The notes under the pieces: generated by a model | Databases searched by the model: none | What the model was told of the DNA's origin: nothing | What the model saw: only the letters and a program-made list of their open reading frames with translations | In this document: positions 9,031-26,386 of the stretch, in pieces | Numbering within the stretch: position 1 is the stretch's first letter | How the letters are laid out: each line of letters begins with the position of its first letter | From: Propionibacteriaceae bacterium | GTDB taxonomy: Bacteria > Actinomycetota > Actinomycetes > Propionibacteriales > Propionibacteriaceae | Length of the DNA stretch: 42,993 nucleotides | Direction of reading: 5' to 3' | Assembly: GCA_025965155.1 (NCBI GenBank) | Contig: JAOPXN010000019.1 | Location: 1-42,993, forward strand | Position numbers and translations under genes: made by a program

Positions 9031-9821
9031 GCGAGATCCACGGGGCCGTCGGCTCCTACGTAGCCAATGCCTTGGACCCCGATGAACGCCGTGAGTTCGA
9101 GAAGCACCTCGCGGTCTGTCCGACCTGCTCACGCGAGGTCGCAGAGTTCAGCGAGACGGCCGCCGAGCTGAGCAGCTTGGTCCAGGCGCCTCCCCCGCCG
9201 ATGCTGCGGTCAGCGGTGCTGTCCTCGATCCAGCAGGTTCGGCCGCTGCCGCCACTGCCTGAAGATGGCCCGGAGGCTGAGCCTCGGCGAGCGGCTGGCA
9301 TGGCCCGTACCGAGCCGGACGGTTCGTCGGCGCCCGTCGACGAGCTCGCGCTTCGGCGGCAGCGCCGGACGGCGCGGGTGCTGTCGCTGGCGGTCGCGGC
9401 CGCCATGGTGGTGGCGCTGGCCATGGGCGGCTGGGTGGTCAACCTGGTGCAGCAGCGGCAGACCCAGGCGGCCGAGGCCGCGCTGGAGACCCAGCTGCTC
9501 AGCGCGCCGGACGCGAAGGTGTACGCCTCCAAGATGCCCGACGGAACCCCGGTCTCGTTCGTGGTCTCGAAGAGTATGAGCAAGGCGATGTTCGTGGGGG
9601 CTGACATGCCCGACCCCGGCGGCGATCAGCTGTACAAGCTGTGGATGGTTCCCCCCGGCGCCGGCGCTCAGCCGGTCGGGGACAACACCTTCAGTGGTGG
9701 TGGCTCGCGGAAGGTCTGGATGCAGAGCGGGATCGCCGACGCGGCGGGCCTGGCGGTCTCGGTGGAGAAGGATGCGAACACGCCGCAGCCCACCACCACA
9801 CCGGTGGTCGTCCCGATCTAG
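9027..9821 (+). CDS. rskA: Anti-sigma-K factor, RskA-like
   Basis: A 264-residue membrane anti-sigma factor. The cytoplasmic N-terminus has the zinc-binding anti-sigma motif HxxxCxxC (H27, C31, C34) in KHLAVCPTC. A single transmembrane helix follows at about 118-138, then an extracellular RskA domain with the QLYKLWMVPPGA and GLAVSVEKD blocks. It should hold the SigK-like factor inactive until cleaved or reset. The start ATG overlaps the sigma gene stop by four bases (ATGA), which supports a fixed stoichiometry. The C-terminus is Pro/Thr/Val-rich. Confidence 0.93.
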   Translation: MSEIHGAVGSYVANALDPDERREFEKHLAVCPTCSREVAEFSETAAELSSLVQAPPPPMLRSAVLSSIQQVRPLPPLPEDGPEAEPRRAAGMARTEPDGSSAPVDELALRRQRRTARVLSLAVAAAMVVALAMGGWVVNLVQQRQTQAAEAALETQLLSAPDAKVYASKMPDGTPVSFVVSKSMSKAMFVGADMPDPGGDQLYKLWMVPPGAGAQPVGDNTFSGGGSRKVWMQSGIADAAGLAVSVEKDANTPQPTTTPVVVPI

Positions 9822-20951: not shown

Positions 20952-21521
20952 TCAGTCCGCGGCGGGGTCGCTCAGCTCCAGGGCTGCCAGCGCGCGGTCG
21001 GCGATCTCGGCCGGTGTCCCGTCGACGGTCACCACCACCCCGTCCTCGTCCGGGTCCAGCGGCTCCAGGGTGGAAAGCTGGGAGCCGAGCAGCGCGGGCG
21101 GCATGAAGTGATCGGTCCGCGCCTGGATCCGGTTCCCGATCAGGTCACGGCTGCCGTCCAGGTGCAGGAACCGCACCCGGGCATCTGCGTGGGACAAGGT
21201 GTCGCGGTACCCCCGCCGCAGCGCCGAGCAGGTCAGCACCACGTTGCCGTCCGCCGCGCTGATCCAGTCCCGGATCGACTCCAGCCACGGCTTCCGGTCG
21301 ACATCGGTCAGTGGCGTTCCAGACGCCATCTTGTCGACATTGGCTTGACTGTGGAACTCGTCAGCCTCCGCGACCTGCCAGCCCAGCCGTTTCCCGAGCA
21401 GCCGGGCGATGGTGGTCTTACCCGAGCCGGAGACGCCCATCACCACGATGGCCGTCTTCTCGGTCCGGTCCGTCCCGGTTCCATTCCGCCCGCCGGTCCC
21501 GCCGGGCTGGCCCGACATCAT
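20952..21521 (-). CDS. gntK: Gluconokinase
   Basis: A 189-residue P-loop kinase that makes 6-phosphogluconate from gluconate. Walker A is GVSGSGKTT (29-37); further family blocks are EADEFHSQANVDKMASGTPLTD, RKPWLESIRDW and CSALRRGYRDTL. The first 20 residues are Gly/Thr-rich and not conserved, so a later start is possible, but the ATG at 21521 overlaps the gnd stop (ATGA) and fits coupling. The product of this enzyme is the substrate of the neighbouring Gnd. Confidence 0.93.
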   Translation of the reverse strand: MMSGQPGGTGGRNGTGTDRTEKTAIVVMGVSGSGKTTIARLLGKRLGWQVAEADEFHSQANVDKMASGTPLTDVDRKPWLESIRDWISAADGNVVLTCSALRRGYRDTLSHADARVRFLHLDGSRDLIGNRIQARTDHFMPPALLGSQLSTLEPLDPDEDGVVVTVDGTPAEIADRALAALELSDPAAD

Positions 21522-22954
21522 GCCGGCTGCTCACTCCGATCCAGGCTCCACTCGGTGTGGAACGCGCCGTCGCCATCCACCCGCCGATAGGTGTGTGCAC
21601 CGAAGAAGTCCCGCTGACCCTGGATCAGGGCAGCCGGGAGCCGCTCGGCCCGGATTCCGTCGTAGTAGGCCAGCGACGAGGAGAACGCCGGCGTCGGGAT
21701 ACCGTTCTGTGCTGCTGCGGCCACCACCCGGCGCCACGCGGCGAGGCTGTTTCCGACGGCGTCGGCAAAGTAGTCGTCGGCCAGCAGCAGCGGCAGGTCG
21801 GCGTCCCGCTCGTAGGCTTCGGTGATCCGGTTCAGGAAACGAGCCCGGATGATGCAGCCGCCGCGCCAGATCCGGGCCATCGCGCCCCGGTCGATGTCCC
21901 AGCCGTACTCCTCGCTGGCCGCCGCGATCTGGTCGAAGCCCTGAGAGTAGGCCACGACCTTGGAGGCATAGAGGGCCTGACGGACATCCTCGACGAACTG
22001 GTCCTTGTCCTGGATGGACCACTCGCCGGTATGAGCCGCCAGCTTGCCGCGGGCGGCCTCGCGCTGTGGCGCTGAGCCGGACAGTGCGCGGGCGAAGGTG
22101 GCCTCCGCGATTCCGGTGATCGGGACGCCCAGGTCCAGCGCGTTCTGCACGGTCCAGCGGCCGGTGCCCTTCTGTTCGGCCTGGTCCTGCACGATATCCA
22201 CGAAGGCGTTACCGGTCCTGTCGTCGACGTGCGCCAGCACCTCGGCGGTGATCTCGATCAGGAAGGACTCGAGGTCCCCCTCGTTCCAGGTCCGGAAGAT
22301 CTCAGCGATCTCCGCCGCGCTCGCGCCGGTGCCCTGGCGGATCAGGTCGTACGCCTCGGCGATCAGCTGCATGTCGGCGTACTCGATGCCGTTGTGCACC
22401 ATCTTGACGAAGTGGCCGGCCCCGTCCGGCCCGACGTACGTGCAGCACGGGACACCGTCGACCTTGGCGGAGATGTCCTCGAGCATGGGGCCGAGCGTCT
22501 TGTAGGACTCACGCGATCCGCCCGGCATGATGGACGGGCCGTTCAGGGCGCCTTCCTCACCTCCGGAGACTCCGGAGCCGACGAAGTGCAGCCCGTGCTC
22601 CTTCAGCTCGGCCTCGCGGCGGATGGTGTCCGGGAAGTGCGCATTGCCGGCGTCGATGACAATGTCGCCCTCCTCGAGCAACGGGATCAGCTCCTGGATC
22701 ACGGCGTCGGTCGGGCCGCCGGCCTTGACCATGATCACCACTCGGCGCGGCCGCTCGAGCGAGGCGACGAAGTCCGCCATTGACTCTGACGGGAGGAACG
22801 TGCCGTCGGAGCCGTGGTCGCTGACCAACGACTGGGTCTTGGCGTGGCTCCGGTTGTGCACCGCCACGCGGTAGCCGTGCCGGGCGAAGTTGCGGGCCAG
22901 GTTACGGCCCATCACCGCAAGTCCGGTTACCCCGATCTGGGCGAGCTCTGCCAT
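21518..22954 (-). CDS. gnd: 6-Phosphogluconate dehydrogenase (decarboxylating, NADP type)
   Basis: A 478-residue enzyme of the long (about 470-residue) Gnd family that converts 6-phosphogluconate to ribulose 5-phosphate and CO2. The N-terminal GVTGLAVMGRNLA coenzyme fold and HNRSHAKT (N34, R35, S36, K39, T40) mark the NADP-binding form. The catalytic block VGSGVSGGEEGALNGPSIMPGG, FVKMVHNGIEYADMQ and the C-terminal RDFFGAHTYRR are all present. AAGGAG lies four bases before the ATG. It is the first gene of a gnd-gntK operon. Confidence 0.96.
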   Translation of the reverse strand: MAELAQIGVTGLAVMGRNLARNFARHGYRVAVHNRSHAKTQSLVSDHGSDGTFLPSESMADFVASLERPRRVVIMVKAGGPTDAVIQELIPLLEEGDIVIDAGNAHFPDTIRREAELKEHGLHFVGSGVSGGEEGALNGPSIMPGGSRESYKTLGPMLEDISAKVDGVPCCTYVGPDGAGHFVKMVHNGIEYADMQLIAEAYDLIRQGTGASAAEIAEIFRTWNEGDLESFLIEITAEVLAHVDDRTGNAFVDIVQDQAEQKGTGRWTVQNALDLGVPITGIAEATFARALSGSAPQREAARGKLAAHTGEWSIQDKDQFVEDVRQALYASKVVAYSQGFDQIAAASEEYGWDIDRGAMARIWRGGCIIRARFLNRITEAYERDADLPLLLADDYFADAVGNSLAAWRRVVAAAAQNGIPTPAFSSSLAYYDGIRAERLPAALIQGQRDFFGAHTYRRVDGDGAFHTEWSLDRSEQPA

Positions 22955-23104: not shown

Positions 23105-24070
23105 ATGCTCCAACCACTCGGCATCAGCGCCGAGGCCGAGTCGATCTACGTCGTGCTGGCGCCGATGGAGTCAGCCACGCCGGCCGAGTTGGCGGAGCTC
23201 ACCTCCAGCGATGAGGAGCGCATCGAGAAGAGGCTCGAGGAGCTCCGTGAGCTGGGCCTGGCGGCCGAGGTCGTGCAGGGCCTGTGGCAGGCGTTGCCGC
23301 TGCTCAGCGTGATCAACGCCTTGCGGGCGCAGCGGCTGACTGAGATCGAAACGGCCGCCGTAGCGGCGGAGTCGCTGCACTCGCACCTGCTGCAAGCGAC
23401 AGAGTCGCAGGCCGACACCATCAAGATCCTCGTCGGACGCGACGCGATCCTGGCGGCGCGCAAGGAGATCTGCAACTCCGCGAAACGTGAGATCTGCGCC
23501 TTCGACAAGCCTCCCTACGTTCAGGGCAGACCGAACGCCACCGCGCAGGGTCTGAGTGAGGAAGCGCCGGAATGGCAGGCCCTGGACCGCGGCATCGCCC
23601 TGCGCGGGGTCTATCACCCCGGCTTCGACTCCGACCGGCTGACCGAGCTGGCCCTCTTCGCCGCCAAGGGGGAACAGTCCAGGACTGCACCGGTGCCGAT
23701 GAAGTTGATCTTGGTCGACTCGCAGGTGGCGCTGATCCCCTCGATGCGCTCCTACAACCCCGGGCATGAGCTGCGGGCGTCGATCACCCGACACCCGATG
23801 CTGGTGGAGGCGTTGCAGTGGCTGTTCGAGTCGGTCTGGGATACCTCGGTGCCTATCATCACCGCCGGCTACGGCGACACCGATCCGCGCCGTCAGATGC
23901 TGATCTCACTGCTGATGACCGGTGCCACCGACAGCGCCATCGCGAGCCAGCTCGGTGTGAACGTCCGGTCGGTACGACGCTGGATCTCAGAGCTGATGGA
24001 TGAGCTCGGGGTTGCTACCCGGCTCCAGCTCGGTGCAGCGCTGGTCCGGGCCGACGCTTTGCGGCACTGA
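23105..24070 (+). CDS. TrmB/LuxR-type transcriptional regulator
   Basis: A 321-residue regulator. Residues about 1-75 look like a TrmB winged helix (MLQPLGISAEAESIYVVLA, then EERIEKRLEELRELGLAAEV). The middle, about 110-240, resembles a TrmB/phospholipase D-like sensor (RDAILAARKEICNSAKREICAFDKPPY). The last 65 residues form a LuxR-type HTH (RRQMLISLLMTGATDSAIASQLGVNVRSVRRWISELMDELG, in part). A strong AGGAGG (23094-23099) precedes the ATG at 23105. No ligand is known. It points toward the repeat-peptide gene, and palindromes that could be its target lie upstream of that gene. Confidence 0.85.
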   Translation: MLQPLGISAEAESIYVVLAPMESATPAELAELTSSDEERIEKRLEELRELGLAAEVVQGLWQALPLLSVINALRAQRLTEIETAAVAAESLHSHLLQATESQADTIKILVGRDAILAARKEICNSAKREICAFDKPPYVQGRPNATAQGLSEEAPEWQALDRGIALRGVYHPGFDSDRLTELALFAAKGEQSRTAPVPMKLILVDSQVALIPSMRSYNPGHELRASITRHPMLVEALQWLFESVWDTSVPIITAGYGDTDPRRQMLISLLMTGATDSAIASQLGVNVRSVRRWISELMDELGVATRLQLGAALVRADALRH

Positions 24071-24106
24071 TTCCCCGACGCGTTGCCCGGCAGCAGGCAC
24101 AGCAAC

Positions 24107-24134
24107 GCCCGCGGTCCTGGGGAGGACCGCGGGC
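24107..24134. terminator. Strong hairpin between the regulator and peptide genes
   Basis: GCCCGCGGTCCT (24107-24118) and AGGACCGCGGGC (24123-24134) form a perfect 12-bp stem with a GGGG loop, 37 bases after the regulator stop. There is no T tract, as is usual in high-GC actinobacteria. It can act in both directions. The rest of 24135-24307 holds a weak 5-bp hairpin at 24257-24270 and nothing else I can support. Confidence 0.75.
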
Positions 24135-24307
24135 ATCGCCCAGGGGGAGGTGATCCGCACAGAACCTCGGGGATAGTCCCGTACGAATGTGTTACTTTCG
24201 GCGCTGCAGACGCTCACATCATCTGCATCACCTTCCGGGAACGTCAGGTATCCCGGCTTCCTTGCGGAAGATCTTTGTTGTCGCCTGCCTGACCAGACGG
24301 GGCGCTG

Positions 24308-24604
24308 TCAGACTCCGTTGACTGTTCGAACGCCGTTGACGTCATCCCTGGTCCAGAAGTTGCGCCCGGCCCCCACACCGTTGACGCCGACTCCATTAAC
24401 CTTGACGCCGTTGACCGCGTCGCCCTTGGACTGGTACCCCACACCATTCACAGCGGCGGACTTGGTCGAGTACGAACTATTCTTGATCCCGTTGACCGCC
24501 CCTGCGGACACCGGTGTCACAAGAAGTCCTGCTGACAGTGCGCCGGCGACAGCGGCTGCCCCCAGAAGCCGCACCGCCTGACGAGTCTTGGATGCACGAA
24601 GCAT
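24308..24604 (-). CDS. Secreted peptide with seven VNG(V/I) repeats
   Basis: A 98-residue precursor. Residues 1-36 are a Sec signal peptide (basic start, hydrophobic core LLGAAAVAGALSAGLLV, AxA-type site SAGA). The predicted mature peptide (37-98, 62 residues) holds VNGI at 37 and VNGV at 52, 64, 69, 74, 89 and 95, ending exactly on the last repeat. It has no cysteine, one Trp (W84) and a net positive charge. GGAGAAGGGA (24620-24611) lies six bases before the ATG at 24604, which fixes the start. I do not recognise the family. No modifying enzyme is adjacent. It may be structural, a signal or a modified-peptide precursor; none is shown. Confidence 0.75.
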   Translation of the reverse strand: MLRASKTRQAVRLLGAAAVAGALSAGLLVTPVSAGAVNGIKNSSYSTKSAAVNGVGYQSKGDAVNGVKVNGVGVNGVGAGRNFWTRDDVNGVRTVNGV

Positions 24605-24676
24605 TGGTTTTCCCTTCTCCTGGTGCCGTTGAGGACTTCCCACGGTCCGCGACACCACCTGACGTTTCTAAGGTCA

Positions 24677-24705
24677 AACCTATGGCCTGAAAACGCCTCA
24701 GGGAA
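24677..24705 (-). promoter_or_regulatory. Candidate promoter of the repeat-peptide gene
   Basis: On the minus strand TTCCCT (24705-24700), a 17-base spacer and TAGGTT (24682-24677). The expected transcript start is near 24670. The two palindromes at 24716-24747 then sit at about -54 and -70, a common position for an activator. Confidence 0.45.
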
Positions 24706-24715
24706 TACTTTTGGC

Positions 24716-24747
24716 TGTCCAGTAGTGGACATGTCCTAAAGTGGACA
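24716..24747. promoter_or_regulatory. Two abutting 16-bp operators TGTCC(A/T)-N4-TGGACA
   Basis: 24716-24731 is TGTCCA-N4-TGGACA, a perfect inverted repeat. 24732-24747 is TGTCCT-N4-TGGACA, with one mismatch. They touch with no gap, placing the two centres 16 bases apart. They lie just upstream of the peptide promoter. A regulator binding as two dimers is likely; the nearby TrmB/LuxR protein is the obvious candidate. Confidence 0.65.
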
Positions 24748-25033: not shown

Positions 25034-26386
25034 ATGACTTGCCATTTCATTCCCCCCTACCTGTTGAGGCAACTTGCCACCAAGGCCGGCGACGAGCGAG
25101 TCGGGCCATCCCCGCAGAGCACGCTTGAGGTTGACGAGGCCTTCCGACTGCACCGGACAACGGCCGCCCGAGGTCTGCAGACAGCCGTAGCTCCTAGCAC
25201 GGCGGACCGGATCATCCATACCGCGAACAACACCCAGACCCTGCCGGGTGAGGTGGCCCGTACCGACGAGCAGCCACCCGTGGGTGACCTCGCGGTGGAT
25301 GAGGCGTGGGACTCATCGGCGCAGGTGTGGGACCTCTTTGACCAGATCTTCGGCCGAGCCTCGATGGACGGCCAGGGCACCACGTTGTCGGTCACTGTGC
25401 ACTACGGAGTCAACTACGACAACGCGTTCTGGGACGGCCAGCAGCTGGTCTTCGGCGACGGAGACGGGAAGATCTTCGACCGCTTCACCAAGCCGATGGA
25501 CGTGCTCGCGCATGAGTTCACCCACGGGGTTACCCAGTTCACCGCGGCGCTGGGCTACCAGGATCAGCCCGGAGCGCTGAACGAGAGCGTCTCCGATGTC
25601 TTCGCCGCAATGACCAAGCAGCGCGCCCTGGACCAGACCGCGGACCAGGCCGACTGGCTGATCGGCGAAGGGCTCTTCCTGCCCTCGGTCAAGGCAATCG
25701 CTCTGCGGTCGATGAAGGACCCAGGGACCGCCTACGACGACCCTCTGCTGGGCAAGGACCCGCAGGTGGGCTCGATGGCGGACTACGTCGACACCAATGA
25801 GGACAACGGCGGAGTCCATCTGAACTCCGGCATCCCGAACCGGGCCTTCGCCCTCGCCAGCATCGCCGTCGGCGGCCGCAGCTGGGATCAGACCGGCAAA
25901 GCCTGGTATGACGCTCTCACGGGTGGCGAGGTCAACTCGACCACCGACTTCGCCGGGTTCGCGCAGGCGACCATCAACTCCAGCACTCGGCTGTTCGGAG
26001 CCGACTCGGCGGTCACCCAGCAGATCTCCGCGGCCTGGACGGAGGTAGGCGTACTCGGCGCCCGGACCGCTCCGGCGCAGCCCGAGACCGACGGCGCAGG
26101 GGCCCCCACCGATGGCCCGCTCCCGGTGACCAAGGTCGCGGTGAAGCGCACCGGAGGCTTCGCCGGTCATACCCGGACCGGCGAGCTCGACCTACTCTCC
26201 GATCCGCAGGGGGAGGAGGTCCGGAACCTCCTGCTGAGCGTCGACCTTCAGGACCTGCTGGTCAGCCCGCCGACACCGGACCGCTTCACCTACACGGTCG
26301 AGTACGGCCAGAGCCGCCTGGTGGTGCCGGAACAGGATCTGACGCCCGAGCTCGACCGCGTGGTCCGCATGGTCCTTGGCGACTGA
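25034..26386 (+). CDS. Protealysin-like M4 metalloprotease with fused emfourin-like domain
   Basis: A 450-residue protein with no signal peptide. The N-terminus has the short protealysin-type propeptide motif CHFIPPYLL (C3). The thermolysin-fold domain follows, with zinc motif H160-E161-F-T-H164, third ligand E184 in LNESVSD, and the proton-donor H262 in GGVHLNSGIPNRAF. After a Pro/Gly/Ala linker (about 343-365), residues 366-450 resemble emfourin, the protealysin inhibitor: VAVKRTGGFAGHTRTGELDL, then FTYTVEYGQSRLVVPEQDL. Emfourin is usually a separate gene next to the protease; here it is fused. GGAGG five bases before the ATG fixes the start at 25034 over a TTG four codons upstream. Confidence 0.88.
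   Translation: MTCHFIPPYLLRQLATKAGDERVGPSPQSTLEVDEAFRLHRTTAARGLQTAVAPSTADRIIHTANNTQTLPGEVARTDEQPPVGDLAVDEAWDSSAQVWDLFDQIFGRASMDGQGTTLSVTVHYGVNYDNAFWDGQQLVFGDGDGKIFDRFTKPMDVLAHEFTHGVTQFTAALGYQDQPGALNESVSDVFAAMTKQRALDQTADQADWLIGEGLFLPSVKAIALRSMKDPGTAYDDPLLGKDPQVGSMADYVDTNEDNGGVHLNSGIPNRAFALASIAVGGRSWDQTGKAWYDALTGGEVNSTTDFAGFAQATINSSTRLFGADSAVTQQISAAWTEVGVLGARTAPAQPETDGAGAPTDGPLPVTKVAVKRTGGFAGHTRTGELDLLSDPQGEEVRNLLLSVDLQDLLVSPPTPDRFTYTVEYGQSRLVVPEQDLTPELDRVVRMVLGD

Follow-up and report, generated by a model that had tools for sequence, protein, structure and literature searches.

Regulator gene and convergent repeat-peptide gene

The window, by which we mean the whole stretch of 42,993 nucleotides (nt) analyzed here (contig JAOPXN010000019.1 of assembly GCA_025965155.1, from a bacterium of the Propionibacteriaceae), contains a gene for a TrmB/LuxR-type regulator that points at a gene for a short precursor built of repeated tetrapeptide units. 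This regulator-precursor pair and the operator-like sequence in the precursor promoter are the subject of this text; the features concerned are the following.

23105..24070, plus strand: regulator gene, 321 amino acids (aa), with N-terminal TrmB-like winged helix-turn-helix (wHTH), PLD-fold middle domain and C-terminal helix-turn-helix (HTH; HTH_23/LuxR-like), from Pfam, AlphaFold2 and Foldseek
24308..24604, minus strand: candidate pheromone precursor, 98 aa, Sec-type signal peptide and 62-aa repeat part with seven VNG[VI] units, from the sequence and the same position in relatives
24497..24604, minus strand: predicted signal peptide, residues 1-36, ending in ...VSAGA directly ahead of the first VNGI, with a putative cleavage site there, from the sequence and a rule-based scan
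24311..24496, minus strand: repeat part, residues 37-98, the final unit VNGV being the C-terminus
24677..24682, minus strand: -10 hexamer TAGGTT of the peptide promoter, 33 nt beyond the operator
24716..24747, no strand assigned: candidate operator TGTCCAGTAGTGGACATGTCCTAAAGTGGACA, two abutting palindromes TGTCCN6GGACA-TGTCCN6GGACA, 0 mismatches to the two-palindrome pattern

This arrangement had been described in the first-pass annotation, whose coordinates, convergent orientation, 62-residue mature part, seven VNG(V/I) units with the last at the exact C-terminus, and two abutting palindromes in the peptide promoter are borne out by the sequence. The stop codons of the two genes are separated by 237 nt, and the precursor gene starts with ATG behind a purine-rich stretch. 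Six of its units read VNGV and one VNGI; the first begins at residue 37, directly after a signal-peptidase-like A-x-A site (AGA), and the last occupies residues 95-98. The seven units are seven distinct 12-mers at the DNA level, with proportions of synonymous (pS) and non-synonymous (pN) differences of 0.754 and 0.038, respectively, and since pS lies far above pN, the amino acids of the units are kept while their codons vary. A DNA-level repeat such as an iteron, considered in place of a coding repeat, was rejected for the same reason. Pfam and NCBIfam searches with the precursor yielded no match at E 1. Used as protein query, it gave matches in 8 of 96 genomes: the source genome, G014 (E 1e-13) and six more with E-values of 0.001-0.01. 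Among these six, the G007 match is the true precursor of that genome. Beyond signal peptide and unit, the matches share little sequence.

The Pfam matches of the window regulator to TrmB at the N-terminus (PF01978; 22.2 bits, curated cut-off 25.6) and to LuxR/GerE at the C-terminus (PF00196; 16.7 bits, curated cut-off 23.5) stay below the cut-offs, and the C-terminal HTH_23 match lies above (26 vs 24.6). In alignment A1, which comprises 20 regulators including one from another genus (G024) and from which, as from the regulator tree, the cut regulator of G016 is omitted, PF01978 was matched at E 0.01 in 9 and PF00196 in 18 of the 20, with no tetratricopeptide repeat (TPR) family among their Pfam matches. 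The AlphaFold2 model (predicted local distance difference test 81.6; predicted template modelling score 0.53) has TrmBL2 (E 7e-14) and TrmB (E 1e-8; TrmB sugar-binding domain, E 8e-7) as its best Foldseek matches, followed by PLD-fold proteins, with whole-chain fits that are loose (template modelling scores 0.30-0.46, large root-mean-square deviation). As modelled, the wHTH and middle domain are a TrmB-like fold.

All 20 examined genomes of the genus Microlunatus, among them M. parietis (G009), M. flavus (G017), M. kandeliicorticis (G002), M. endophyticus (G013) and M. speluncae (G004), contain a match to the regulator, the copy of G016 being cut by a contig end. Identity to the window regulator is 48-84% across the 18 other genus rows of A1 and about 47-49% for G024. 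By domain, mean pairwise identity amounts to 0.77 for the C-terminal HTH, 0.59 for the middle and 0.44 for the N-terminal domain; the top rank of the C-terminal HTH would fit a role in reading a conserved operator.

Repeat units across Microlunatus

A unit-bearing precursor occupies the same convergent place in 19 of the 20 genus genomes, and 18 of these lie within their contig; the 19 include the frame-broken precursor of G012 and that of G005, which is cut by a contig end. The rule-based scan missed the precursors of G001, G002, G005, G012 and G016, which repeat scans and reading frames recovered. In G012 (locus L059) the signal peptide is encoded in another frame than the later INGS repeats, and as read from the sequence the gene is broken or mis-assembled within its repeat array.

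The units differ from genome to genome: VNG[VI] x7 in the window, VNGV x7 plus VNGG in G014, VNSI x2 plus VNGV in G009, VNSL x3 in G004, AHNL x20 plus DHNL in G008, GRGI x2 in G018, GRGV x2 in G011, GHTL x8 in G001, GHSL x8 in G016, ANGL in G005, GNSL x12 in G019, GRGY x1 in each of G003, G015 and G017, INGV x23 plus INGL in G002, VNGL x16 in G013, VNGF x20 in G007, INGS in G012 and LNGA x27 in G006. Copies per precursor thus range from 1 to 27, and precursor lengths in the relatives from 43 to 219 aa, with some above 100. Within one precursor the units are near-uniform, yet between close relatives all copies differ together: sister pairs in the regulator tree have switched from GRGI x2 to GRGV x2, VNSI to VNSL and VNGL x16 to VNGF x20, or the reverse, and GHTL x8 faces GHSL x8 in two genomes that are close by DNA (G001 and G016, the latter outside the regulator tree). 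Codon variation again leaves the residues largely untouched, with pS/pN values of 0.585/0 for GHTL, 0.308/0 for GHSL, 0.533/0 for VNGL, 0.647/0 for VNGF, 0.671/0.021 for LNGA, 0.536/0.029 for the units of G014, 0.913/0.071 for VNSL, 0.321/0.013 for AHNL and 0.309/0.011 for INGV; the serine of GNSL is coded in two codon boxes.

A predicted signal peptide, called by an in-house hydropathy/A-x-A rule, is present in 14 of 18 precursors including that of the window, and was recognized by eye in G012. Several precursors have their first unit abutting the A-x-A site (PAQA-AHNL, AASA-VNSI, SADA-LNGA), and in many a unit stands close behind this site and also right at the stop codon. In G003, G015 and G017 the mature peptide would, given the predicted cleavage sites, measure only about 13 residues, with GRGY at its C-terminus and two of the nine other positions in common.

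The association of such repeats with the regulator was compared with that at other TrmB/LuxR loci. Of the 20 Microlunatus loci, 9 have, close to the regulator, an open reading frame (ORF) with at least three copies of its own C-terminal tetrapeptide, vs 0 of the 49 other loci; at two or more copies the numbers are 13 of 20 vs 4 of 49, where 12 of the 13 are flagged by the precursor itself and L059 only by unrelated ORFs. At class level, a regulator search (E <= 1e-50) gave hits in 8 of 296 genomes, namely the window's own, one congener and six others. In two loci, L133 and L134, the scan returned a few ORFs, none with a repeated unit, and a locus from Auraticoccus was taken from a scan of named genomes covering 12 loci. 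From these sequence comparisons the regulator-precursor pair appears to be found only in Microlunatus. The first-pass annotation had named as refuting conditions that repeats be confined to this genome and that relatives lack a linked regulator; the outcome favours its view, as repeat homologues and linked regulator do exist in the Microlunatus relatives. No such pair was found across the actinobacteria.

Operator and hairpin RNAs

The pattern TGTCCN6GGACATGTCCN6GGACA occurs at three mismatches or fewer in 20 of 20 genus genomes, with 1-9 sites each and 63 in total, and outside the genus in 2 of 37 genomes, at 3 mismatches; the reversed pattern, used as control, occurs in 3 of 57 genomes, one site each, all Microlunatus. 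The 63 sites divide into 14 peptide promoters, seven others within regulator loci (G002, G006, G007, G012, G013 and two in G010), 40 further loci that were fetched, and one each on contigs C278 of G008 and C475 of G005. Each of the 18 precursor genes has the operator ahead of it, at 14 loci within three mismatches and at four with 4-5. In all 18 peptide promoters a TANNNT box starts 65-67 nt from the operator start, the operator ending 33-35 nt ahead of it. With the start site placed a few bases past the hexamer, the operator would span about -77 to -46, a position typical of activators; co-occurrence and placement suggest that it is read by the linked regulator. Neither the species-specific unit nor the nature of the palindromes as a conserved, activator-type operator with other targets had been part of the first-pass annotation.

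These other targets include a family of hairpins. At 19 of the 40 fetched loci (within L092-L131, e.g., L095:3048-3160, plus strand; L105 near 2968, minus strand; L107 near 3125, plus strand) a hairpin with the invariant loop AACCCCCGAG lies 90-97 nt past the operator, and some operator loci carry two hairpins about 43-52 nt apart. The stem shows changes on both sides at 15 of 16 pairs, a number that 17 of 500 shuffles reach, its cells pair in 88.5% vs 53.8% in shuffles and 42-49% when slid, and its covariation is 0.828 vs 0.202, with no shuffle reaching 0.828. Because of this pairing and covariation relative to the shuffles, the AACCCCCGAG-loop hairpin is taken as a real RNA structure. Among the 19 operator-linked hairpin promoters, 15 have a TANNNT box at offset 64-66; in the opposite orientation none of the 19 has one at 64-67. 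Trained on the 19 hairpins, a covariance model recovered 99 copies, spread over all 20 genus genomes; 19 of these match because the model was built on them. It also gave single, weaker copies in 21 of 196 genomes from elsewhere in the class, and 15 of these 21 genomes belong to one genus. In the window's own genome, the hairpin is located on contigs C102, C74, C84, C38, C115, C54 and C81. Of 22 further hairpins in 20 fetched loci, one has an operator-like sequence with 5 mismatches at the usual distance; since the other 21 have no operator-like sequence upstream (at least 7 mismatches), the hairpin family is not tied to the operator.

At E 0.1, none of the 11 operator loci compared with Rfam gave a match. 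The 6C RNA was considered as identity of the hairpin and is unsupported, as its model gave only matches below threshold, elsewhere in the genomes; this search, in which no control genome passed the threshold either, is however insensitive. A sub-threshold match to mir-4526, the sole one in seven hairpin loci outside the genus, appears chance-like, and a match to Prion_pknot at 9403-9434 of the window (28.3 bits vs a threshold of 39) was likewise taken as chance.

Several side observations concern the surroundings of these elements. A G-rich element, CGATCGGGGGATC, which is complementary to the hairpin loop in seven bases, lies across from several operators; its exact form was counted 24 times, in 15 of the 20 genus genomes (vs 0 for the reversed control), and stands beside the operator in L094, L099, L101, L105, L113, L121, L123 and L131, a near form standing there in L095 and L103. 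The loop could pair with G-rich sites. A different, conserved hairpin stands between the two stop codons at 24105-24180 of the window (GCCCGCGGTCC...GGACCGCGGGC then CGCCCAGGGGGAGG) and is seen in G000, G014, G009, G004, G001 and G016, with a similar element beyond the peptide operator in G002, G006, G007 and G012. A conserved, non-coding-looking stretch, TGCACCGCA[GA]CGCT..., follows right behind a -10-like box in L057, L058, L059, L060 and L112, in the first four of these behind a second operator between the peptide and M4 protease genes. Outside the genus, the loop hairpin is found once per genome in a genus with large genomes (15 genomes), as in L193 and L199 near position 1519, where the gene behind it is presumably dapA. 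A copy in the window's own genome (L208) has no operator and lies about 400 nt upstream of a gene that we take to be WhiB-like.

Two neighbours of the pair were identified by Pfam, and genus-wide conservation was followed for these.

21518..22954, minus strand: gnd (6-phosphogluconate dehydrogenase), lying upstream of the regulator and conserved there
25034..26386, plus strand: M4 metalloprotease with C-terminal emfourin domain, the operator lying between this gene and the peptide gene; a candidate component of the system

In the window and 18 of the 19 remaining genus loci gnd adjoins the regulator; the exception, G016, lacks sequence at this place. The linkage is probably only synteny. An M4 protease lies 0.8-2.0 kb past the regulator in the window and 12 of 19 other genus loci, and at 4.2 kb in G010. 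None was found within about 4 kb in G002, G004, G009 and G019, and the sequence ends too early in G005 and G014. From its position one might guess that the protease takes part in the maturation of the peptide or in its destruction. Further neighbours, read from the sequence, appear to comprise a gluconate kinase, an alcohol dehydrogenase and other metabolic genes, and judged from these the window looks chromosomal.

Proposed mechanism, rival explanations and known systems

The linkage of the two genes, the uniform and species-specific units, the selection on their amino acids, the operator with its spacing and the covarying hairpins are what the computation yielded. We consider it probable, with some reserve, that the precursor gives rise to an autoinducing, species-specific peptide pheromone that is sensed by the linked TrmB/PLD-fold regulator. 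The precursor would be exported, by Sec in most species, and cut into short peptides bearing the C-terminal tetrapeptide unit (VNGV in the window). Such a peptide would be re-imported and bind the neighbouring regulator in the cytoplasm. The peptide-bound regulator would then sit on the double-palindrome operator through its conserved C-terminal HTH and, lying about 46-77 bp ahead of the start site, activate the peptide gene, which would amount to positive feedback. It would also activate a group of small RNAs that fold into hairpins with C-rich loops, the expression of these RNAs and the direction of their regulation being presumed. Of the roles offered in the first-pass annotation, an extracellular signal is the one that the sequence computations support.

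Several observations weigh against this reading. G010 keeps the regulator and the operator sites, and no precursor was found there. No recognisable Sec signal was found in three of 18 precursors (G001, G016 and G002), and in G006, G007 and G012 a tail extends beyond the last unit, which breaks the rule of the exact C-terminus. Two unit sets show weaker selection (VNSI/VNGV, pS/pN 0.375/0.179; GNSL, 0.571/0.177), and the two GRGI units, being identical at the DNA level, are little informative. The most variable domain of the regulator is the N-terminal wHTH, whereas the ligand would be expected in the PLD-fold domain. Operators of G001, G008, G011 and G016 are degenerate in one half, with one good palindrome kept; L046, L047, L048, L058 and L062 contain two overlapping operator registers, of which the one with a -10 box was counted; and G024 has a regulator of 49% identity and no operator site. 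Finally, no such precursor was found at the six regulators with 30-33% identity, at that of G024 or at that of Auraticoccus (47%).

Among the alternatives, the one that deserves most attention, though still improbable, is that some other, unlinked regulator reads the operator, and that the TrmB-type neighbour does something else and owes its linkage to inherited synteny with gnd. The pairing of operator and regulator rests on co-occurrence and placement, G010 retains regulator and operators in the absence of the peptide, and the four half-degenerate peptide operators together with G024 lowered our estimate for the pheromone and raised that for a different regulator. Against it, the operator occurs in all 20 genus genomes and in only 2 of 37 others, a distribution that the close regulator shares, and it precedes the partner gene of the regulator at each of the 18 loci. 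It is also conceivable, although unlikely, that the precursor has a structural role outside the cell, as a matrix, surface or amyloid-like repeat protein whose expression is under the neighbouring regulator. Low-complexity repeats are common in surface proteins, secretion is predicted, and some species have long arrays (LNGA x27, VNGF x20, VNGL x16, AHNL x20). However, a mature part of about 13 residues with a single GRGY in three species (by predicted cleavage), and of 20-odd residues with two units in two others, speaks against the amyloid or coat component that the first-pass annotation had considered, and the chemistry of the unit (VNGV, GRGY, GHTL) and its copy number (1 to 27) change while regulator and operator stay. 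Its further idea, an ageing of repeated Asn-Gly sites, does not agree with the units GRGI, GRGV, GRGY, GHTL, GHSL, AHNL and GNSL, which have no NG.

Slightly less credit still is given to an intracellular action, in which the units, either released or still part of the whole protein, bind the regulator directly as co-activator or inhibitor without export and the signal peptides are secondary. The three of 18 precursors without recognisable signal peptide and the simple feedback loop that the operator yields would fit, but a signal peptide was recognized in 15 of 18 (by scan in 14, by eye in G012), and several precursors start their first unit directly at a cleavage-like site. The least probable of the explanations considered is a bacteriocin or a multi-core ribosomally synthesized and post-translationally modified peptide (RiPP). 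Units separated by basic residues, as in the GHTL and GHSL precursors, recall multi-core RiPPs; nevertheless, the neighbouring genes, mostly read from the sequence, showed no sign of a modifying enzyme, an immunity function or a dedicated transporter.

Should the pheromone reading be true, the Actinomycetota would possess a different language, one in which a gene-encoded peptide is exported by Sec without modification and sensed by a linked receptor inside the cell. Passages of one source describe actinobacterial signals as typically enzyme-made small molecules (PMC10075063), and passages of another name gamma-butyrolactones and cyclic or modified peptides (PMC4748050). The natural variants of the unit (VNGV, GRGY, GHTL, AHNL and others) would serve studies of specificity, a small-RNA family stands under the same operator as the peptide gene, and the system is directly testable. 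To our knowledge, the TrmB/PLD fold has not been described as a peptide receptor. Whether all this amounts to a pheromone class of the Actinomycetota, defined by a TrmB/PLD-fold receptor with two HTHs, a species-diverged unit of tetrapeptide length and an output of operator-linked small RNAs with C-rich loops, is a wider claim that we make tentatively and hold at somewhat below even. The view of the first-pass annotation that the system is undescribed has held so far: among the matches listed in the open-licence literature, subscription papers being outside the scope, no description of such a regulator and repeat-peptide pair was found.

As to known systems, 6C RNA and other small RNAs with C-rich loops resemble the operator-linked hairpins in their C-rich-loop hairpins, sometimes two in a row. 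Many other actinobacterial TrmB/LuxR-type regulators (about 27-40% identity, mostly from order-level genomes) are alignable over most of their length, with the tetrapeptide test at three copies negative in all 49 of their loci. The archaeal TrmB and TrmBL2 proteins, which according to PDB entry names and the Pfam title bind sugars or act as chromatin protein, are alike in fold in the N-terminal wHTH and middle domain (Foldseek); unlike them, the Microlunatus regulator has an additional C-terminal HTH and a linked peptide gene. A likeness in arrangement, adjacent genes for a small precursor and a putatively cytoplasmic receptor, is to the RRNPP/RRNPPA systems of Bacillota (Rap-Phr, PlcR-PapR, NprR-NprX, AimR-AimP). 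The five criteria given for RRNPP in passages of PMC10075063 are directly adjacent genes, a small propeptide of 10-100 aa, its secretion by Sec, a receptor of 250-500 aa and TPR repeats in this receptor. The pair in the window agrees in three of the five, with adjacent genes, a propeptide of 98 aa and a regulator of 321 aa, and a Sec signal is predicted in the proportion of relatives given above. Parts of two further sources mention that some RRNPP propeptides hold several pheromones (PMC11343458) and that autoinducers of RRNPP-type systems undergo intragenic duplication and divergence (PMC5199041). The Microlunatus pair belongs to another phylum, its genes are convergent and its precursors hold up to 27 units, and because its regulator has TrmB wHTH, PLD-fold and C-terminal HTH domains in place of TPR repeats, we do not file it as RRNPP. 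By analogy, the pair seems RRNPP-like in its logic and unrelated in its receptor; as intracellularly sensed peptide pheromones are known as such, this unrelated receptor would be the new part.

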